DNA of 40,602 bases, taken from Alphaproteobacteria bacterium (GTDB lineage Bacteria; Pseudomonadota; Alphaproteobacteria; Micropepsales; Micropepsaceae). A program made the translations under genes and the position numbers. The notes beneath the pieces are model-generated. The model made no database searches, was not told the origin of the DNA, and was given only the letters and a program-made list of their open reading frames with translations. The stretch lies in contig CANJBZ010000036.1 in the NCBI GenBank assembly GCA_947473475.1, positions 1 to 40,602 on the forward strand. Reading direction: 5' to 3'. This document shows positions 30,851 through 38,213 of the stretch, one piece after another. Within the stretch, counting starts at the first letter, position 1; every line of letters begins with the position of its first letter.

Positions 30851-31372
30851 CTATTTGGCGATGGGATTTTCCATCAAAGCCAGAAGCCCTTTCAGCAACG
30901 CGATCGGCTTGGGTGGGCAGCCTTTGATGTGTAAATCGACGGGCACCACCGCTGAAACGCCGCCAACAACGGCGTAGCTGCCGGCGAACATGCCTCCATC
31001 CAGCGCGCAGTCGCCGACGGCCACCACCCATTTCGGTGACGGGGTTGCGGTGTAGGTGCGCTCCAAGGCTTCGCGCATGTTCTTGGTCACGGGTCCCGTC
31101 ACGAACAGAACATCGGCGTGGCGCGGTGAGGCGACGAAGCGCAATCCGAAGCGCTCCAGATCGTAAAATGCATTCTGCAGCGCGTGGATTTCAAGTTCGC
31201 AGCCATTGCAGGAACCTGCATCCACCTCGCGGATGGAAAGGCTGCGTCCCAGCCGTTTCTTCGCAGCTGCATCGAGCCGTGCGCTTAGGGCGAGCAGCTC
31301 TGGATCGTCGGCCGCCGGGCGGGCTTCCGTCAGCGGCTTACGCGTGAGTCCTTGCAGAATCAGCCTGCGCAT
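30851..31372 (-). CDS. hyfI: Complex I/hydrogenase-4-like small subunit (HyfI/NuoB type)
   Basis: A 173-aa subunit read from the ATG at 31372; longer frames run into the upstream gene. Its four cysteines for one [4Fe-4S] cluster (N2-like) are all present: C55 and C58 in SCNGCE, C122 in GDCALDGG and C152 in KGCPPKP. In complex I and hydrogenases this subunit passes electrons to or from the site in the large subunit. The start overlaps the large-subunit stop by one base (TGATG), and it is the last gene of the operon. The symbol reflects homology only, since the complex is not expected to be a hydrogenase. Confidence 0.9.
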   Translation of the reverse strand: MRRLILQGLTRKPLTEARPAADDPELLALSARLDAAAKKRLGRSLSIREVDAGSCNGCELEIHALQNAFYDLERFGLRFVASPRHADVLFVTGPVTKNMREALERTYTATPSPKWVVAVGDCALDGGMFAGSYAVVGGVSAVVPVDLHIKGCPPKPIALLKGLLALMENPIAK

Positions 31373-32877
31373 CAGAGGTCGTGCCCCGAATAGGAGCAGT
31401 TGAACGATTTGTTGCACAGCGGAAAATCGGCGACGATGTTGCCCTCGATAACCCCTTCCAGCAGTGGCCATTGAAACCACGATGCGTCGCGCAAATGACA
31501 GCGAGCGATGCGGCCGCTTTCGTCCAACCGCAGCCAGACAAGCACATCGCCGCGGAATGCTTCGACCAGGGCTACGCCTTCGCCAGCGCGCAACGGTATA
31601 TCCGTTTGCGTCGACCCGCTTGGAAGCGTGGCCAGGATTTGTTCGATCAGCGATAGCGATTGCTCGATCTCCCGGATGCGAATCCAGACGCGCGCGTTGA
31701 CGTCGCCCTCTTGCAAGACCGGCACGTCGAACGTGAGCACATCATAAGGCGGATAGGCAAACGCGCGGCGCGCATCGAAATCGCGCCCCGAAGCGCGGCC
31801 CACATAGCCGCCGGCGCCGAACTGCCGGGCAAGTTCGGGTTTGAGGGTTCCCGTCGTCACCGTGCGGTCCTGCAGCGACGCTGTCTGGTCGTAAAGGGAA
31901 ACCAGCTGGGGGAATTGGTGGCGCACGTCCTTGATGAGCTCGCGCAAAGCATTGGCGCCCGTTGCGTCGAGGTCCACCGTAACGCCGCCCGGCACGACGC
32001 AGTCCCGCATGAGCCGATGACCAAAACACAGATCGGCCGCGCGCAGCACGCGTTCGCGCAAGACGCTGCAATGCGCGTGCATGATCGCAAAGGAGGCGTC
32101 GTTGCAGATGGCGCCGACGTCGCCGAGGTGATTGGCAAGGCGCTCGATTTCAGCCATCAGCGCCCGCAGATAATGCGCGCGCGCGGGCGCTTCACTTTGC
32201 GTTGCGGCTTCGACAGCGCGGGCGAAAGCGATTGTATAGGCGACCGTGCTGTCGCCGGAGGTGCGTCCGGCCAATTTTGCGCCGCGGGCAATATCCGCGC
32301 CGCACATCAGGCCTTCGATCCCCTTATGCACATAGCCGAGCCGCTCCTCCAGCCGCACCACAATCTCGCCATTCGCGGTGAAGCGGAAATGACCAGGTTC
32401 GATAATGCCCGCATGCACGGGGCCCACGGGAATCTGATGCAGCGCCTCGCCCTCATTCGCGAGAAAGGCATAGGGTGCGTGCGTCGTTTCGGGACTCGTG
32501 GCGCCAAGCGGATGACGCACGTCCCAGCGGCCATGATCGAGCCAGGGGCGCGAGTCCGGCGCATCCAGTGGCACAAAGCCGAAGAGGTCGGCAATTGTAC
32601 GCTCAAGACGAATGGCCGGCGGGTGAGACAGCGCGACGGACGGAAATGCGCCATTGGGACAGGGTAGCGTAAGAACGGCGGCGCCGCGGGTTTGCGTGTC
32701 GTACACGGCCATGTGGACCGCATCGTGTTCGCCCCACAAGCCCAGAAGCGAAAGGACGCCTTCGCGCAACGCGGCGGTGGCGCTGCGCCATGCGTCTTCA
32801 TCCACGATCGCGCGTGGCCAAGGCCGGTGCTCGGCCACCGCGAGTCCGTTAGCAAGCAGGGTGTCGAAGGCGTTCAT
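31372..32877 (-). CDS. hyfG: Hydrogenase-4-like large subunit lacking NiFe cysteines
   Basis: A 501-aa protein, with a NuoC-like domain (about 1-115) fused to a NuoD/HyfG-like domain (about 125-501), as in HyfG and HycE. Conserved stretches are PVGPVHAGIIEPGHFRF and RLGYVHKGIEGL. The first NiFe motif of true enzymes (RVCGIC) reads RTSGDS at residues 205-210, so both cysteines are serine; the second (DPCxxC) is replaced by SFNCSYSGHDL at the C-terminus, with C488 and C494 not forming CxxC. It therefore cannot hold a NiFe centre in the known way. This matches Ehr-type relatives of group 4 hydrogenases. ATGA overlaps the upstream hyfF-like gene. Confidence 0.9.
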   Translation of the reverse strand: MNAFDTLLANGLAVAEHRPWPRAIVDEDAWRSATAALREGVLSLLGLWGEHDAVHMAVYDTQTRGAAVLTLPCPNGAFPSVALSHPPAIRLERTIADLFGFVPLDAPDSRPWLDHGRWDVRHPLGATSPETTHAPYAFLANEGEALHQIPVGPVHAGIIEPGHFRFTANGEIVVRLEERLGYVHKGIEGLMCGADIARGAKLAGRTSGDSTVAYTIAFARAVEAATQSEAPARAHYLRALMAEIERLANHLGDVGAICNDASFAIMHAHCSVLRERVLRAADLCFGHRLMRDCVVPGGVTVDLDATGANALRELIKDVRHQFPQLVSLYDQTASLQDRTVTTGTLKPELARQFGAGGYVGRASGRDFDARRAFAYPPYDVLTFDVPVLQEGDVNARVWIRIREIEQSLSLIEQILATLPSGSTQTDIPLRAGEGVALVEAFRGDVLVWLRLDESGRIARCHLRDASWFQWPLLEGVIEGNIVADFPLCNKSFNCSYSGHDL

Positions 32878-34316
32878 CCGAGCATGCTTGCGACGTGCTG
32901 GAACCAAACGACCACCGCCGGTGGTAAATAGATTCCGGCAGCAAACACAATCGCCAGATGCGCGAACATCGGCACATAGGATATGCGCACGGGCGCCTGG
33001 GTGCCGACTGGTTCACCAAAGGCAAGCCCCGTCAGGCGCAGCATCAGCGCACCGAATGCGACCAGCAGACCAACGACCAGAGGAATGGCGAGGAGAGGCG
33101 CTCGCGAAAAGGTCGAACTGACCACCAGGAATTCGCTCATGAAAATGCCGAGCGGCGGCAGTCCGGCAATCGCGACCACGCCGAGCACAAGGCCCCACCC
33201 CAGACCAGGATGCGTCGCGGTAAGCCCGCCTATGTCCCCAATGCGCTGTGTGCCTTTGATTTGCGTGATGTGGCCGACCGCAAAAAAGATCGCGGACTTG
33301 GTGAGGCTGTGCATGGTCATTTGCAGAAGCCCGGCGAAATTGGCGAGCGGCCCGCCCATGCCGAAGGCAAAGACAATGATCCCCATGTGCTCAATGGACG
33401 AATACGCAAACAGCCGTTTGATGTCACGTCGGCGGTACAGCATGAAGGCCGCGAAAGCGAGAGAAACAAGCCCCATTGTCACCATCAGGGGGCCCGGCGC
33501 CATGGCGCGCGGATTTGCCGCCAGAAGAACCTTGAACCGCAGCACCGCATAAAGCGCCACGTTCAGAAGCAGTCCCGACAGTACCGCGGAAATCGGCGTG
33601 GGACCTTCCGCGTGGGCATCAGGCAGCCACGCATGCAGCGGCACGAGCCCCACTTTCGTGCCATATCCGAGCAGCAGGAAAATAAACGCGACGTTCAGCA
33701 GCGTGGGATCGAATTCTGCAACGCGGCTGTTCAGGACCGTCCAGATCATGCCGGGCAGGCCTTCGCCCACCACGGGCTCGGCCGCGATGTACACGAGGAT
33801 CGTACCGAACAGCGCGAACGCGATGCCGACGCTGCCCAGGATGAAATATTTCCACGCCGCTTCAAGCGACTGATGCGTGCGGTAGATGCCGACGATCAGA
33901 ACGGTCGCAAGCGTTGTCATTTCGATGGCGACCCACATCAGGCCGATATTGTTGGCGGTCAGCGCAACGTTCATGCCGAACATCATCAGCTGATACATCG
34001 CGTGATAGAATTGCACATAACCGGGCGTGAGATGCCCGGTTTCAATTTCGTGACCGATATAGGTGGCGCTGAACAGGCTCGTGGTGAAACCGACAAAGGT
34101 GTTGAGCACGATGAAGATGACGCTCAGCTCATCCACCAGAAAGTAGTCGTTCGGCTGCGGCGGCCGTACAACCAGCAACCCCGCCGAAAGCAGCGTCACC
34201 GCACTGGCAAGGACGTTGAACGCAGACGAGACGCGGTAGTTTGGCATCAGCGCGAGAAATCCGGCTGACAGCAACGGCATCAGCAGAACCAGCGTCAGCG
34301 GTTGGATGATCGTCAT
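32874..34316 (-). CDS. hyfF: Hydrogenase-4-like antiporter subunit (HyfF type)
   Basis: A 480-aa membrane protein with about 14 helices, of the NuoL/M/N Proton_antipo_M family. The residues expected for ion pumping are kept: E132 in WVAIEMTTLATV, K221 in GYGTKVGLVPLHAWLPDAH, and a later lysine in MHSLTKSAIFF. The pattern LPDAHAEGPTPISAVLSG is that of HyfF/NuoM-like proteins. It overlaps hyfE-like upstream and hyfG-like downstream by ATGA, so synthesis is coupled. It should form one of two ion channels in the complex. Confidence 0.92.
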   Translation of the reverse strand: MTIIQPLTLVLLMPLLSAGFLALMPNYRVSSAFNVLASAVTLLSAGLLVVRPPQPNDYFLVDELSVIFIVLNTFVGFTTSLFSATYIGHEIETGHLTPGYVQFYHAMYQLMMFGMNVALTANNIGLMWVAIEMTTLATVLIVGIYRTHQSLEAAWKYFILGSVGIAFALFGTILVYIAAEPVVGEGLPGMIWTVLNSRVAEFDPTLLNVAFIFLLLGYGTKVGLVPLHAWLPDAHAEGPTPISAVLSGLLLNVALYAVLRFKVLLAANPRAMAPGPLMVTMGLVSLAFAAFMLYRRRDIKRLFAYSSIEHMGIIVFAFGMGGPLANFAGLLQMTMHSLTKSAIFFAVGHITQIKGTQRIGDIGGLTATHPGLGWGLVLGVVAIAGLPPLGIFMSEFLVVSSTFSRAPLLAIPLVVGLLVAFGALMLRLTGLAFGEPVGTQAPVRISYVPMFAHLAIVFAAGIYLPPAVVVWFQHVASMLG

Positions 34317-34978
34317 GGTTGTTGCTCGCCCCGGAAGCGGTCGAGCGCCTGCATGTCCACGCTGTCAAAGCGCTCGCGTATACGGAACAGAAAGATGCCG
34401 ATGACGATGAAGGCGATCAGCACGGAAAACGCGACGCTGATTTCGACGACCAGCGGCATCCCCTTCGCGCCCGCTGCGGCGAGTATCAGGCCGTTTTCCA
34501 GCGACATGAAACCGATGACCTGACCGACGGCATTGCGCCGCGTCACCATCATCAACAGGCCAAGCAACAGCACCGACAGCGCGAAAGCCAAATCTTCGCG
34601 CGCCAGCGGATCGGCCATAGCGGTGATCCGCAGCATCACCACCATGGACAGGGCCACCAGAGCCATACCGGCAAGCATGGTCAGTCCGGTGCCGACAACC
34701 GTATCGATCTCCCGGTGAATGCCGAGCTGCACGATCATGCGCCGCAACGAAACCGGAATGACGAACGCCTTGAACAGCAGCGCGATCATCGCCGTCACAT
34801 AGAGCTCGGGCATGTTCTGGATCGTCGCCTGCCAGGCAACGGATGCGGCCAGCAGGATCGCGTGCAGCGCAAAGACATTGATGAGCGAGGGCAGGCGGTC
34901 CTGGTAAATCATCAGGAAGCTCACCAGCACCAGGCTGCCCGCCAGTAAATGTGCGATGTCGAAGGCCAGCCCCTGCAT
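34313..34978 (-). CDS. hyfE: Hydrogenase-4-like membrane subunit (HyfE type)
   Basis: A 221-aa protein with six or seven helices. The C-terminal half corresponds to NuoK, with membrane glutamates E161 in GFMSLENGLILAA and E179 in MPLVVEISVAF, which are important for proton transfer in complex I. The N-terminal half is the HyfE-specific extension. The start overlaps the hyfC-like stop by one base (TGATG), and the stop overlaps the next start (ATGA). Confidence 0.9.
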   Translation of the reverse strand: MQGLAFDIAHLLAGSLVLVSFLMIYQDRLPSLINVFALHAILLAASVAWQATIQNMPELYVTAMIALLFKAFVIPVSLRRMIVQLGIHREIDTVVGTGLTMLAGMALVALSMVVMLRITAMADPLAREDLAFALSVLLLGLLMMVTRRNAVGQVIGFMSLENGLILAAAGAKGMPLVVEISVAFSVLIAFIVIGIFLFRIRERFDSVDMQALDRFRGEQQP

Positions 34979-35934
34979 CAGAAGCTCCCCGATACAAAGC
35001 GCAACAGCGTGCCCAGCAGCCCGAGCATCAATGCAGCGCCGAGAAAGGCAGGAACGCGGAACACGCGCATTTTCGCAATACTCGTCTCGAAGGCGGCGAG
35101 CGCGATACCGCAGACAGCCAATTTGCCGACATAGGAGAGCAGACCAATGGCGTAGCCGCGCAAATCGCTATTTGGCGGCGCCAGTCCCCACGGCACGAAC
35201 ACGCAGCCGATCAGCGAGGCGTACAGCAGCAGCTTCAGAGACGCGGCCAGCTCGATCAGCGCGAGGGGCCGTCCCGAATATTCCAGCACCATGGCTTCAT
35301 GCACCATGGTCAGTTCCAGATGCGTGGCTGGATTGTCGACGGGAATGCGCCCGTTCTCCGCAATCGCCACCATGATCAACGCGAACAACGCCATCGCCAG
35401 CGTCACCCGCAAACCCTCTTGCAGCGACAGCAGATAGACGGCCATTGCCGAAAGCTGCGTCGAGCCCGCGACGAGCGCCAGCGAAAACACGATCATGATC
35501 ATCGCCGGTTCGGCCAAGGATGCGATCATCGCCTCGCGGCTGGAGCCGATCCCGCCAAAGCTGGTGCCGATATCCATGCCGGCAAGCGCCAGGAAAAATC
35601 GCCCGCTGCCGAGAAGCGCAACGATCGCGATCAAATCGCCGGACCAACTGAACAGCAGTCCCGTCGCGAAGGTCGGCACCAGTGCCGCCGCCACCCAGGT
35701 TAAGGCGAAAACCAAATACGGCACGGCGCAAAAAAGCCAGGACCCGTTCGTCGCGACAATGGATTCCTTGCCGAGCAGCCGCCGGAAATCGCGGTAGGGC
35801 TGAATCAGCGGCGGTCCCACGCGCCGCAGCAGGCGCGCTTTCACTTTGCGCACCAGCCCGGTGAGCAGCGGCGCCAGCAGCAGAACCAGCGCCATTTGGA
35901 CGCTTTGCACCGCAAGGTCGCGCAGCAGCGTCAT
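34978..35934 (-). CDS. hyfC: Hydrogenase-4-like membrane anchor (HyfC/NuoH type)
   Basis: A 318-aa protein with eight helices, of the NuoH/HyfC family that joins the membrane arm to the soluble subunits. The signature ENGRIPVDNP (193-202) is followed by the conserved acids E207, E213 and E218 in LELTMVHEAMVLEYSG, the region that lines the quinone-site side in complex I. An N-terminal cytoplasmic loop with RVGPPLIQPYRDFRRLL is standard. Genes before and after overlap it. All residues expected in a working NuoH-like subunit are present, so the complex is probably functional despite the altered large subunit. Confidence 0.93.
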   Translation of the reverse strand: MTLLRDLAVQSVQMALVLLLAPLLTGLVRKVKARLLRRVGPPLIQPYRDFRRLLGKESIVATNGSWLFCAVPYLVFALTWVAAALVPTFATGLLFSWSGDLIAIVALLGSGRFFLALAGMDIGTSFGGIGSSREAMIASLAEPAMIMIVFSLALVAGSTQLSAMAVYLLSLQEGLRVTLAMALFALIMVAIAENGRIPVDNPATHLELTMVHEAMVLEYSGRPLALIELAASLKLLLYASLIGCVFVPWGLAPPNSDLRGYAIGLLSYVGKLAVCGIALAAFETSIAKMRVFRVPAFLGAALMLGLLGTLLRFVSGSF

Positions 35935-37931
35935 AGCGCCACCACCAGCAGCAGGATGACGAGAGTCAGGAAAACGAGCGTGAGATAGCTACGGATAGTC
36001 AGGAATTGCAGTGTGTTCAGGCGTTCGGCAACGAAGGAGATGCCGCCTGCCAACGGCGCATAAAAATAATCCCAGACCGGATCGCGGATTTCGACGGTAA
36101 TACGGGCAGGCGCCGTGCTGCCCGGTGGAGGCATGACGACGCGATCATGCGCCTGAAACACTGTCGTGCCGAACACGCGGCGCAGCGGTTGTGCGAAGCT
36201 GCTCGCGCTGTATTGCGTGGCCGGATTTGAGTCGGGAAAGCCGCAGTCCCAGGCGGGCGCGCGACGCGTCGCTCTGGAGCCCAGGAGCCAGACAACAAGG
36301 GCGGCAAGGGACGCCGACGTCGCGATGAAGACGAGAATAAGAAATCCGTCATACGAACTTCGTTCAGCCGAAATTGGCACCAGGGCCAGCCACGGAACAT
36401 CGGCTTGGGGCGGCAGACGGACATCGAGAAACTCCAAAGTCACCGCCGAAAGCGCGTCCGTGGCGAAACCGGGAAAAGCCCCAAATGCGACGCAGAGAAA
36501 CGCGAAGGCCGCAAGCGCGGCCTGAGGCCATGCGTCTACCTCGCGCGCTCCTTCCGCGTTCGCGGTGCGCGGGCGTCCCAAAAAGCTCACGCCGAAAACG
36601 CGGATAAAACAGGCAGCAGCGAGCGCCGCCGCCAGCGCCAGCATTGCGCCGCAGGCGGGGACCAGGATTTTCAATCCCCATTGCGGCAATTGCGGACTGA
36701 GCAGAATGGCTTGCAGCGTCAGCCATTCCGACGCGAACCCGTTCAACGGCGGCAGCGCGGAAAGCGCCGCGCATCCCGTCAAGACGGCAGCGGCGGTCAC
36801 GGGCATACGGTGAATCAGCCCACCCATATGTTCCATGTTGCGCTCGCCCGTTGCCGTCAGCACAGCGCCTGCGCCGAAGAACAACAGACTTTTCATGATC
36901 GCGTGGTTGAACGCATGCAGCAGCGCCGCGACGAGCGCCAGCGCCGCGGCCGTGGCCAGTCCGTTTGCGTGAAAGGCGAGCGCCAGTCCAAGGCCGACAA
37001 AAATGAAGCCGATATTCTCGATCGTGCTGTAAGCGAGCACCCGCTTGAGATCGCTTTCCATCAAAGCGGAGAGCACGCCCCAAACGGCGCTTGCCGCGCC
37101 GGCGGTCAGCACGACCAAGCCCCACCATGGTTCGGGGAGCCCGTCCAAATCGAAAATAATGCGGATGAACGCGTAGACGGCGACCTTCGTCATCACGCCA
37201 CTCATCAGGGCCGATACATGGCTGGGCGCCGCAGGATGCGCGAGCGGAAGCCACACATGCAGCGGCACCAGACCGGCCTTGGATCCCGCGCCGATCAGCA
37301 CGAGCAACAGCACCGCGCTCGCGGTAACGGGCCCAGGCGTGGCGATGCGAATGAAGTTAAACGCATAGTTGCCCTGCTCGCCCGCCAGCAGGCTGAAGGC
37401 AAGAAGCAGCGCCAGCGTGCCGGCGCTTGCCATCACGATATAGATAAACGCCGCACGCCGGTTTTCCGGATCGCGATGGTGCGCCAGCACAAGCGCCCAG
37501 GATGCGAGCGACATGAACTCCCAAGAGACAAGAAATGTGAATGCGTCATCCGCCACGAGAACAAGATTCATTCCCGCGAGAAACAGCGGAAAGAACGGAA
37601 GCACCCGCCATGGCTCCTTTTCGTGCCGGCCGTAACCGAGCGCATAGAGGCTTGCTCCAGCAGCGCCCAAATTGACGATCACTTGAAACGCCGCCGCCAA
37701 CGGGTCGATCAAGAAATGGGCGCCAGCCCAGGGGAGGCCCAGCGGGAGCACCAGCGAGGTCTCCGCGCCCGACAAAAGTGCCTGTGCGCCCTGCACCAGA
37801 AGCGCGGCGCTCAAGATGAGACTGACGCCGTAGACGATCCAAGTCCCCGCGCGGGAGCGGGCAAGCGCGATGGCGGCAACGGAAAGTGCAAGCAAGCCGG
37901 CAATGCAGGGAAGCGTAGTGGCGATCCCCAT
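35931..37931 (-). CDS. hyfB: Hydrogenase-4-like antiporter subunit (HyfB type)
   Basis: A 666-aa membrane protein with about 16 helices. E138 in VSWEFMSLASWALV and K218 in GAGSKAGLVPLHVWLP are the pumping residues; a further lysine lies in FNHAIMKSLLFFGAG. The segment APSHVSALMSGVMTKVAVY is the HyfB signature, and the C-terminal CGFPDSNPATQYSASSFAQP tail is typical of HyfB. It is the first structural gene of the operon, 6 bp after the XRE regulator gene, and overlaps hyfC-like by ATGA. With hyfF-like it gives two antiporter-like subunits; a HyfD equivalent is absent. Confidence 0.92.
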   Translation of the reverse strand: MGIATTLPCIAGLLALSVAAIALARSRAGTWIVYGVSLILSAALLVQGAQALLSGAETSLVLPLGLPWAGAHFLIDPLAAAFQVIVNLGAAGASLYALGYGRHEKEPWRVLPFFPLFLAGMNLVLVADDAFTFLVSWEFMSLASWALVLAHHRDPENRRAAFIYIVMASAGTLALLLAFSLLAGEQGNYAFNFIRIATPGPVTASAVLLLVLIGAGSKAGLVPLHVWLPLAHPAAPSHVSALMSGVMTKVAVYAFIRIIFDLDGLPEPWWGLVVLTAGAASAVWGVLSALMESDLKRVLAYSTIENIGFIFVGLGLALAFHANGLATAAALALVAALLHAFNHAIMKSLLFFGAGAVLTATGERNMEHMGGLIHRMPVTAAAVLTGCAALSALPPLNGFASEWLTLQAILLSPQLPQWGLKILVPACGAMLALAAALAAACFIRVFGVSFLGRPRTANAEGAREVDAWPQAALAAFAFLCVAFGAFPGFATDALSAVTLEFLDVRLPPQADVPWLALVPISAERSSYDGFLILVFIATSASLAALVVWLLGSRATRRAPAWDCGFPDSNPATQYSASSFAQPLRRVFGTTVFQAHDRVVMPPPGSTAPARITVEIRDPVWDYFYAPLAGGISFVAERLNTLQFLTIRSYLTLVFLTLVILLLVVAL

Positions 37932-37937
37932 GCGTGA

Positions 37938-38213
37938 TCAGCCCGTTGCTCGGCCAGTTGACGATGGCGCGTTCTTCAGCCGGACTCCGCGGCCTTCGCC
38001 GCTGCTGGCGGCGCCTTCGCCAATAAGCTCCACGCCCGCGGCGTCCAGCGCCTGAACCAGCTTCATCAGGGAATCCACATTGCCGCGGATCACCCCTTCG
38101 CTCGCTTCCATGCGCTGAATCGTGGGAACGGAGAGGCTGGCGAGCTCTGCGAGCTTCCTCTGATCCAGGCCGGCTAACGCCCGGGCGGCACGGAGCTGTG
38201 CGGCACTTATCAT
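37938..38213 (-). CDS. Small XRE family transcriptional regulator
   Basis: A 91-aa protein. A helix-turn-helix covers about residues 5-60 (LRAARALAGLDQRKLAELAS, then SVPTIQRMEASEG as recognition helix region), followed by a short tail with LDAAGVELI and GRGVRLK that is common in this group of small regulators. It opens the six-gene hyf-like operon, only 6 bp before hyfB-like, and its start codon lies in the left arm of a 27-bp palindrome. This strongly suggests autoregulation. It is likely the dedicated repressor or activator of the operon. Confidence 0.85.
   Translation of the reverse strand: MISAAQLRAARALAGLDQRKLAELASLSVPTIQRMEASEGVIRGNVDSLMKLVQALDAAGVELIGEGAASSGEGRGVRLKNAPSSTGRATG

Follow-up and report, generated by a model that had tools for sequence, protein, structure and literature searches.

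A predicted six-subunit Ehr complex from Micropepsaceae with a conserved polar site in place of the Ni-Fe pocket

The window analyzed here is a stretch of 40,602 nucleotides, contig CANJBZ010000036.1 from an alphaproteobacterium of the family Micropepsaceae (assembly GCA_947473475.1). It carries a hyfB-C-E-F-G-I-like operon that, judged from its sequence, is an intact unit for a six-subunit complex of the group 4 hydrogenase/complex I kind. By its published description, the class into which the predicted complex falls is the known class Ehr (energy-converting hydrogenase-related). Its large subunit is without the cysteines that would hold a Ni-Fe site. The conservation pattern indicates that the old Ni-Fe pocket is now a conserved polar site (S207, G208, D209, and S210 together with N493, C494, S495, Y496, and G498), rebuilt rather than ruined.

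Organization of the operon

The six genes occupy positions 30851-37931 of the minus strand. All start with ATG, and neighbors overlap by 1 or 4 bases:

35931-37931, minus strand: HyfB-like antiporter subunit (NuoL/MbhH-like), 666 amino acids (aa); 846.6 bits against the NCBIfam model of hydrogenase 4 subunit B, whose cut-off is 667
34978-35934, minus strand: HyfC/NuoH-like membrane anchor, 318 aa; PF00146 (NADHdh), 131.8 bits
34313-34978, minus strand: HyfE-like (NuoJ/K-type) membrane subunit, 221 aa; NCBIfam NF008556 "hydrogenase 4 membrane subunit", 79.9 bits, under the cut-off of 136
32874-34316, minus strand: HyfF-like antiporter subunit, 480 aa; 845.9 bits against the NCBIfam model of hydrogenase 4 subunit F, whose cut-off is 533
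31372-32877, minus strand: HyfG-like large subunit with fused NuoC-like and NuoD-like domains, 501 aa; PF00346, 148 bits
30851-31372, minus strand: HyfI/NuoB-like small subunit with one N2-type [4Fe-4S] site, 173 aa; PF01058, 117.7 bits

An initial annotation had read six overlapping genes in this order, and the coordinates, the ATG starts, and the Pfam and NCBIfam assignments bear it out, with HyfE under its cut-off. The mechanical open reading frames (ORFs) of the large and small subunits start further upstream (10 codons, at a TTG, and 36 codons, at a GTG, respectively); we used the ATG calls. Pfam found Proton_antipo_M twice among the operon proteins and Oxidored_q6 and NADHdh once each. 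On the large subunit, Complex1_49kDa scored above its cut-off and NiFeSe_Hases just under (24 versus 25.8 bits). The HyfE-like protein matched neither a Pfam family nor, at E<=1, a PDB sequence. The operon has just two antiporter genes, HyfD not being separable from HyfB/HyfF by tblastn. The gene order B-C-E-F-G-I recurs in 80 loci of named genomes, as far as their contigs reach.

A conserved polar site in place of the Ni-Fe ligands

To locate the Ni-Fe motifs, the large subunit was aligned with E. coli HyfG and HycE, the genuine Hyf of G062, a genome from the window's family, and a group 4 hydrogenase of Azospirillum. Two segments stand at the places of the motifs:

32248-32259, minus strand: SGDS, residues 207-210, at the place of the first Ni-Fe motif, CGIC (by alignment)
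31384-31416, minus strand: CNKSFNCSYSG, residues 488-498, at the place of the C-terminal Ni-Fe motif, SYSG replacing CYSC

The DPCYSC of E. coli HycE and HyfG aligns with NCSYSG, and the four Ni-Fe ligand columns (C1 to C4) hold S207, S210, S495, and G498. Hence, where the large subunit of a group 4 [NiFe] hydrogenase has a CxxC pair at each end, the window protein has SGDS and SYSG. Both replacements had been named in the initial annotation, with exact residue numbers for the first.

Conservation was counted over 107 alignment rows, which represent 103 distinct genes (L123-L126 duplicate L026, L005, L009, and L020). Three loci that are the window itself (L002-L004) were removed before counting, and L027-L033 (partial copies or NuoD) stand outside the Ehr count. 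We use "window-type" as a label: the record of L095 has Steroidobacteraceae in its title, and some others give no more than Proteobacteria. Among the 103 distinct window-type homologs, C1 is a serine in 101 and a cysteine in two. The other three ligand columns have a cysteine in 0/103, with C2 being Ser, Thr, or Ala, C3 Ser or Ala, and C4 Gly. G208, D209, N493, C494, Y496, and G498 are invariant (103/103), and C488 is present in 101/103. A hydrogenase with shifted ligands, which the initial annotation had set as a refuting case, can be ruled out, as none of the 107 rows has a CxxC near either motif; the sole CxxC anywhere is that of one sequence, at residue 431.

A looser signature, [S/A]GD[S/T] with NKSxNx[S/N]YxG, occurs in four betaproteobacterial homologs, one gammaproteobacterial homolog, and one from Rhodococcus. 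As a rule these lack the two alpha-specific cysteines, C488 and C494, which are I and L in the four betaproteobacterial proteins. The Allomeiothermus large subunit has a more divergent form of the same signature.

By sequence and by fold, the closest solved relative of the large subunit is E. coli HycE. It was the top match of an AlphaFold2 model (7z0s_E, Z 36.7, rmsd 3.5 over 467 residues). The model has a pLDDT of 78 and a pTM of 0.85, and pocket geometry was not taken from it, residues 478-501 being below a pLDDT of 50.

Cluster ligands, membrane subunits, and quinone site

The small subunit has its cluster ligands, Cys 55, 58, 122, and 152 (91, 94, 158, and 188 in ORF numbering), which are retained in 79/80, 79/80, 79/80, and 78/79 window-type rows, respectively:

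31208-31210, 31199-31201, 31007-31009, and 30917-30919, minus strand: codons of the N2-ligand cysteines of the small subunit

Its top PDB relatives are HycG and MbhJ. Charged residues of the membrane subunits are equally well preserved. In HyfB, E138, K218, K249, K347, and E402 are kept in 70/70, 70/70, 70/71, 71/71, and 71/71 window-type rows; in HyfF, E132, K221, K300, K340, and E395 are kept in 77/77, 78/78, 79/79, 79/79, and 79/79. Thus the pumping residues and the four Fe-S cysteines, said in the initial annotation to remain in the window, are retained across window-type rows. The NuoH-like loop of HyfC (E193, D200, H205, E207, H212, E213, and E218) is identical in all 74 rows. In complex I, the corresponding NuoH loop faces the active-site chamber. 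Where the window has H205 and H212, E. coli HyfC/HycD and the Hyf of G062 have E and Q; the two histidines are shared by the beta and gamma rows and by those of Rhodococcus and Allomeiothermus.

His38, Tyr87, and Asp139 of Thermus Nqo4, which we take to be the quinone-site triad of complex I, align with I159, G208, and D260 of the window large subunit, so only the Asp is left. I159 and G208 are each found in 103/103 homologs, and the His and Tyr of a complex I quinone site are thus missing. The adjacent E160 aligns with a Glu found in all four compared hydrogenases and not in NuoD.

Distribution, selection, and phylogeny

Full-length copies of the operon are present in 23 of the 96 genomes of the order, one of which (G051) has an in-frame stop; two further genomes have partial copies. 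Across the class, copies of at least 53% identity were found in 24/289 genomes, two of them with two copies and one with a partial copy. Values of dN/dS (the ratio of nonsynonymous to synonymous substitution rates) ranged from 0.017 to 0.197 in 48 comparisons (six genes in eight pairs of relatives, the window itself outside the pairs), which indicates purifying selection on each of the six genes in the relatives. A decaying operon is ruled out by these low values together with the intact frames and overlaps in the window. In a large-subunit tree of the kind that the initial annotation had proposed, the Ehr rows cluster together, separate from HycE/HyfG, Mbh, and NuoD (100/100, the bootstrap being not fully settled), and the same grouping is recovered at 100/99 once four long rows are dropped; both trees carry long-branch warnings and are without published Ehr reference sequences.

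Maturation genes and candidate partners

We searched 81 sources (the window and 80 loci, 1.40 Mb) by tblastn for HyfA, HyfH, HyfJ, HycB, HycF, HycI, and HypA-E, and none had a match, in agreement with the initial annotation, which had seen neither HyfA/HyfH nor a hydrogenase maturation gene at the locus. Positive controls beyond the query's own locus were obtained for HyfA, HyfH, HyfJ, HycB, HycF, HypA, and HypE only; for HypB, HypC, HypD, and HycI, the sole positive control was the query's own source. An FdhF-like match was found in one of the 81 sources; it is weak (L079, 22.8%) and not in the window. The linked ferredoxin-like subunits and formate dehydrogenase of a formate hydrogenlyase are thus missing from the window. 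The genome search for hyp genes that had been advised was made for HypD only, which is absent from the window's own genome (99.02% complete); the same search was positive in four of the 14 named control genomes. One separate NuoD and one formate dehydrogenase alpha subunit (Fdh-alpha) above the cut-off are encoded in the own genome.

Among the 23 Ehr-bearing genomes of the order, HypD is lacking in 15, including 11 of the 16 with a completeness of 90% or more (hand count). Fdh-alpha above the cut-off is lacking in 10/23 and in 6/16 of those at least 90% complete, some of which have weaker Fdh-like matches. Co-occurrence was compared with the other 73 genomes of the order in tests that ignore phylogeny, genome size, and incompleteness: Fdh-alpha above the cut-off was found in 13/23 versus 13/73 genomes (Fisher p 0.0008), and an association with cbb3 oxidase was rejected (ccoN, 8/23 versus 28/73, p 0.81). 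Matches to the CO dehydrogenase model TIGR02416, in 74/96 genomes with none above the cut-off, were uninformative. Neither formate dehydrogenase nor HypD looks like an obligate partner.

As a separate observation, HypD occurs more often in the Ehr-bearing genomes than in the others of the order (8/23 versus 3/73, p 0.0004, phylogeny ignored), though Ehr has no Ni-Fe site. In addition, genome G062, from the window's family, has an Ehr operon plus a genuine Hyf/formate hydrogenlyase cluster (L122, G062:C100:10000-29000). This Hyf has CGIC and DPCYSC, HyfA/HyfH-like ferredoxin subunits, and formate dehydrogenase and HypE alongside.

Ehr in a reduced genome

G263 is an alphaproteobacterial genome of 0.9 Mb (completeness 100, 50 contigs, 34% GC near the operon). 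Its operon (L145, G263:C21:5000-17400) comprises I, G, F, E, and a C at the contig end, with hyfB expected past that end, and its copies carry the pocket, cluster, and loop signatures. No NuoD was found in G263, the only PF00346 matches being the Ehr complex itself; there was likewise no COX1, and Fdh-alpha gave no match at all. Its one UbiA-family gene is MenA (NCBIfam TIGR00751). Ehr is thus kept in a genome that shows no complex I, heme-copper oxidase, or formate dehydrogenase, which speaks for a valuable role that would not depend on them. From the gene content of this one assembly, in which absences may be gaps, the complex seems useful without NuoD, COX1, or Fdh-alpha.

Fluoride-linked relatives and relatives without N2 ligands

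Related complexes with the order C-E-F-G-I-B are encoded on plasmids of Burkholderia cenocepacia, B. multivorans, Caballeronia, and Mycobacterium branderi. All four operons have a fluoride riboswitch (RF01734) upstream, which in M. branderi stands ahead of a NUDIX gene preceding the operon; in Alicyclobacillus, RF01734 is also upstream of a lone large-subunit gene:

L118:6176-6246, L127:4630-4700, L128:4584-4654, L129:4250-4323, and L132:7732-7792: fluoride riboswitches (L132 being that of a lone large-subunit gene)

The four annotated fluoride-linked records have CrcB, enolase, or pyrophosphatase genes in the neighborhood. The paper on Ehr is reportedly that of Marreiros and others (2013), and that on the fluoride riboswitch is said to be by Baker and others (2012). 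In the part consulted, one report lists "formate hydrogen lyase" as a target of this riboswitch (PMC2864571), and a 2024 review, likewise excerpted, accounts for the target by formate oxidation (PMC11139923). All five fluoride-linked large subunits are without the four Ni-Fe cysteines; formate-hydrogen-lyase activity is not supported by the sequences of these predicted complexes. The group forms a tree branch separate from the window type. No fluoride link was found for the window's own clade: there is no riboswitch in the window, in the 13 of 80 loci given to Rfam, or in L115-L117, L130, L131, and L133.

Two small subunits are without all four N2 ligands: those of M. branderi (L129:9498-10289; N, D, D, and A at the ligand positions) and Allomeiothermus (L131:9263-10135; T, D, E, and S). 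The M. branderi protein keeps an N-terminal single-cluster ferredoxin domain above the Pfam cut-off. Allomeiothermus gave no Fer4 match at E<=0.001; a short CxxCxxC stretch is still present. The small subunit of L118 (L118:11118-11918) has an N-terminal two-motif ferredoxin domain (Pfam Fer4/Fer4_7, above cut-off), which suggests a NuoI-like part fused to the NuoB-like part.

Flanking genes

The operon is preceded by a regulator gene, with which it makes a seven-gene unit on the minus strand (30851-38213):

37938-38213, minus strand: XRE-family helix-turn-helix gene (Pfam HTH_31/HTH_3), which opens the unit and lies 6 bases upstream of hyfB

Of 68 relatives whose hyfB is near-full, 65 have an XRE homolog directly upstream on the same strand. 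Apart from this gene, a search of the flanks for a universal partner was negative, and the flanks otherwise vary by lineage. A spermidine-synthase/methyltransferase-like gene neighbors the operon in 15/81 window-type sources, once as a match of 46 residues, and a DUF1275 (YoaK) gene does so in 6/81; the window has neither. Both adjoin all four betaproteobacterial operons (L115, L117, L133, and L134) and not the gammaproteobacterial L116:

L115:14636-16266, L133:10544-12170, L117:2436-4429, and L134:548-2379: spermidine-synthase/methyltransferase-like and DUF1275 genes; in L036, L038, and L043, upstream of the operon

A functional link of these neighbors to Ehr is possible. Other flank families are antisense readings or clade-limited, such as a substrate-binding-protein-like gene (named by eye) in 10 loci, all Bradyrhizobium-titled.

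Discussion

We hold with moderate confidence that the complex is an ion-translocating Ehr driven by electrons that would enter at its single exposed cluster and leave to an acceptor in the rebuilt pocket. A soluble donor would feed the cluster directly, no NuoI-like subunit being encoded to cover it, and the electron would pass to a small acceptor in the pocket. The reaction at the interface of the large and small subunits would be coupled, via the NuoH-like loop, to translocation of protons (or sodium) through HyfB and HyfF. Several points weigh against this proposal. Family searches and tblastn found no NuoI/HyfH/HyfA ferredoxin-like subunit among the operon genes, so no donor subunit is encoded there; ordinary quinone reduction is doubtful because two of the three quinone-triad residues are lost; and related complexes seem able to work without an N2 cluster, M. 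branderi and Allomeiothermus keeping the rest.

The same points, together with the missing Ni-Fe site, fit a machine without redox chemistry, in which the coupling arm would be a gated proton or ion conduit or an antiporter and the Fe-S cluster a structural element or gating redox sensor. We regard such a machine as possible, though rather unlikely. Two relatives are without both Ni-Fe and N2 ligands, and Allomeiothermus also has no Fer4 match at the threshold above. The fluoride riboswitch beside the four C-E-F-G-I-B operons and one lone gene would make a stress-linked proton task plausible, because entry of hydrogen fluoride (HF) acidifies the cell. However, the cluster ligands are kept in nearly every row of the window clade, which would be superfluous for a purely mechanical role; the ferredoxin domains of M. 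branderi and L118 mean that those complexes may still carry clusters; and the fluoride-linked group is a separate branch, with no riboswitch in the window or the 13 window-type loci tested. A related evolutionary scheme, stepwise loss of redox chemistry from hydrogenase to the window type and on to the Allomeiothermus type, with M. branderi between, strikes us as doubtful, and the ferredoxin domain kept by M. branderi makes it less probable. In that scheme the window type would have one cluster, acting as a gate or sensor, and an invariant polar site, around D209 and N493, made from the Ni-Fe pocket; the membrane arm would be driven or gated by an input other than electrons, such as ligand binding or a proton/HF load. 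The initial annotation had left the choice between pumping with an unnamed electron donor or acceptor and working without redox chemistry. Its premises, that what a hydrogenase requires is missing and that the complex fits Ehr, hold, and the two relatives without N2 ligands lend its no-redox option some weight.

Electrons might instead come from a formate dehydrogenase encoded elsewhere in the genome. Such a pairing with Ehr is proposed for Margulisbacteria in the available portion of PMC6349859 and suggested by Geobacter proteomics in that of PMC7894505, and it agrees with the own genome's Fdh-alpha and with the enrichment in Ehr-bearing genomes (13/23 versus 13/73, phylogeny and genome size ignored). 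It is nevertheless unlikely, given the 10 of 23 Ehr-bearing genomes without Fdh-alpha above the cut-off, the lack of any match in G263, the single weak FdhF-like match near 81 sources, and the failure to find an Fe-S adaptor gene. Reduction of sulfane sulfur or another small substrate in the emptied pocket, as in MBS, draws on a solved relative and on C488 and C494, which could handle sulfur. Yet both cysteines are absent from the four betaproteobacterial homologs and hence not general to the class, and the MBS large subunit was compared as a fold and sequence match only; we consider this improbable. A hydrogenase that works with unusual ligands, or a hydrogenase operon in decay, could account for HypD in 8/23 versus 3/73 genomes, for Ehr beside a true Hyf in G062, and for the two homologs with Cys at C1. 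However, 15/23 genomes, the window's own included, are without HypD, the true Hyf of G062 has intact ligands and partners, and the genes have intact frames and are under purifying selection in relatives, leaving this explanation with a negligible probability.

The way in which complex I links its chemistry to pumping is central to bioenergetics. With six subunits, a single Fe-S cluster, and neither a hydrogenase site nor a canonical quinone site, this natural version would offer a near-minimal test object. By this comparison, names such as "hydrogenase 4" or "formate hydrogenlyase", applied to these genes in rhizobia and relatives and in the fluoride-resistance review, would point to the wrong activity.

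Comparison with known systems

Ehr complexes are described, in the passages at hand, as hydrogenase-related, with antiporter subunits and no Ni-Fe ligands (PMC6349859, PMC10284858). The window operon has the matching features: a group 4/NuoD-related large subunit, no Ni-Fe cysteine ligands, and NuoH-like and Mrp/NuoL-like membrane subunits. The Ehr assignment of the initial annotation thus fits the class as printed, and what a [NiFe] hydrogenase needs is lacking. Ehr of Geobacter, Nitrospira, and Margulisbacteria (PMC7894505, PMC10284858, and PMC6349859, as excerpted) likewise have soluble subunits without Ni-Fe ligands and NuoH-like and antiporter-like subunits. By comparison, the window complex has six subunits only, none of them ferredoxin-like; the likeness is one of description, with no Ehr reference in the trees. 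A partial literature search recognized no experimental work on this alphaproteobacterial operon.

The hyfBCEFGI genes of Cupriavidus metallidurans CH34 and of H16 are six in number and ordered as in the window; the 2010 report, in the portion consulted, considers the hyf operon incomplete and a role in lithotrophic growth very unlikely, and does not use the name Ehr for it (PMC2864759). The CH34 large subunit (L115) is 45% identical to that of the window and has SGDS and NKSFNLSYAG, without C488 and C494. E. coli hydrogenase-4/formate hydrogenlyase (HyfA-J, HycB-G) offers the closest solved large-subunit fold (31-32% identity) and shares the B-C-E-F-G-I order, whereas the window locus has no Ni-Fe ligands, HyfA/D/H/J, formate dehydrogenase, or Hyp genes. 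Respiratory complex I shares the fold, the N2-type cluster ligands, the acids of the NuoH loop, and the antiporter Glu/Lys residues; unlike complex I, the window operon has no NADH module or NuoI, and Ile and Gly replace His38 and Tyr87 of the quinone site. The archaeal MBS, a solved relative, ranks 33rd by fold (TM score 0.75 by target and 0.57 by query). The fluoride-linked "formate hydrogen lyase" (PMC2864571 and PMC11139923, each in part) has the same kinds of subunit and a large subunit likewise without Ni-Fe cysteines, but differs in its C-E-F-G-I-B order, in other pocket residues, and in a ferredoxin domain fused to the small subunit (Pfam, L118 and L129). To the known Ehr class, this sequence comparison adds the pocket signature common to four lineages, the lost quinone residues, the G263 operon, the fluoride-riboswitch-linked relatives, and the two relatives without N2 ligands.

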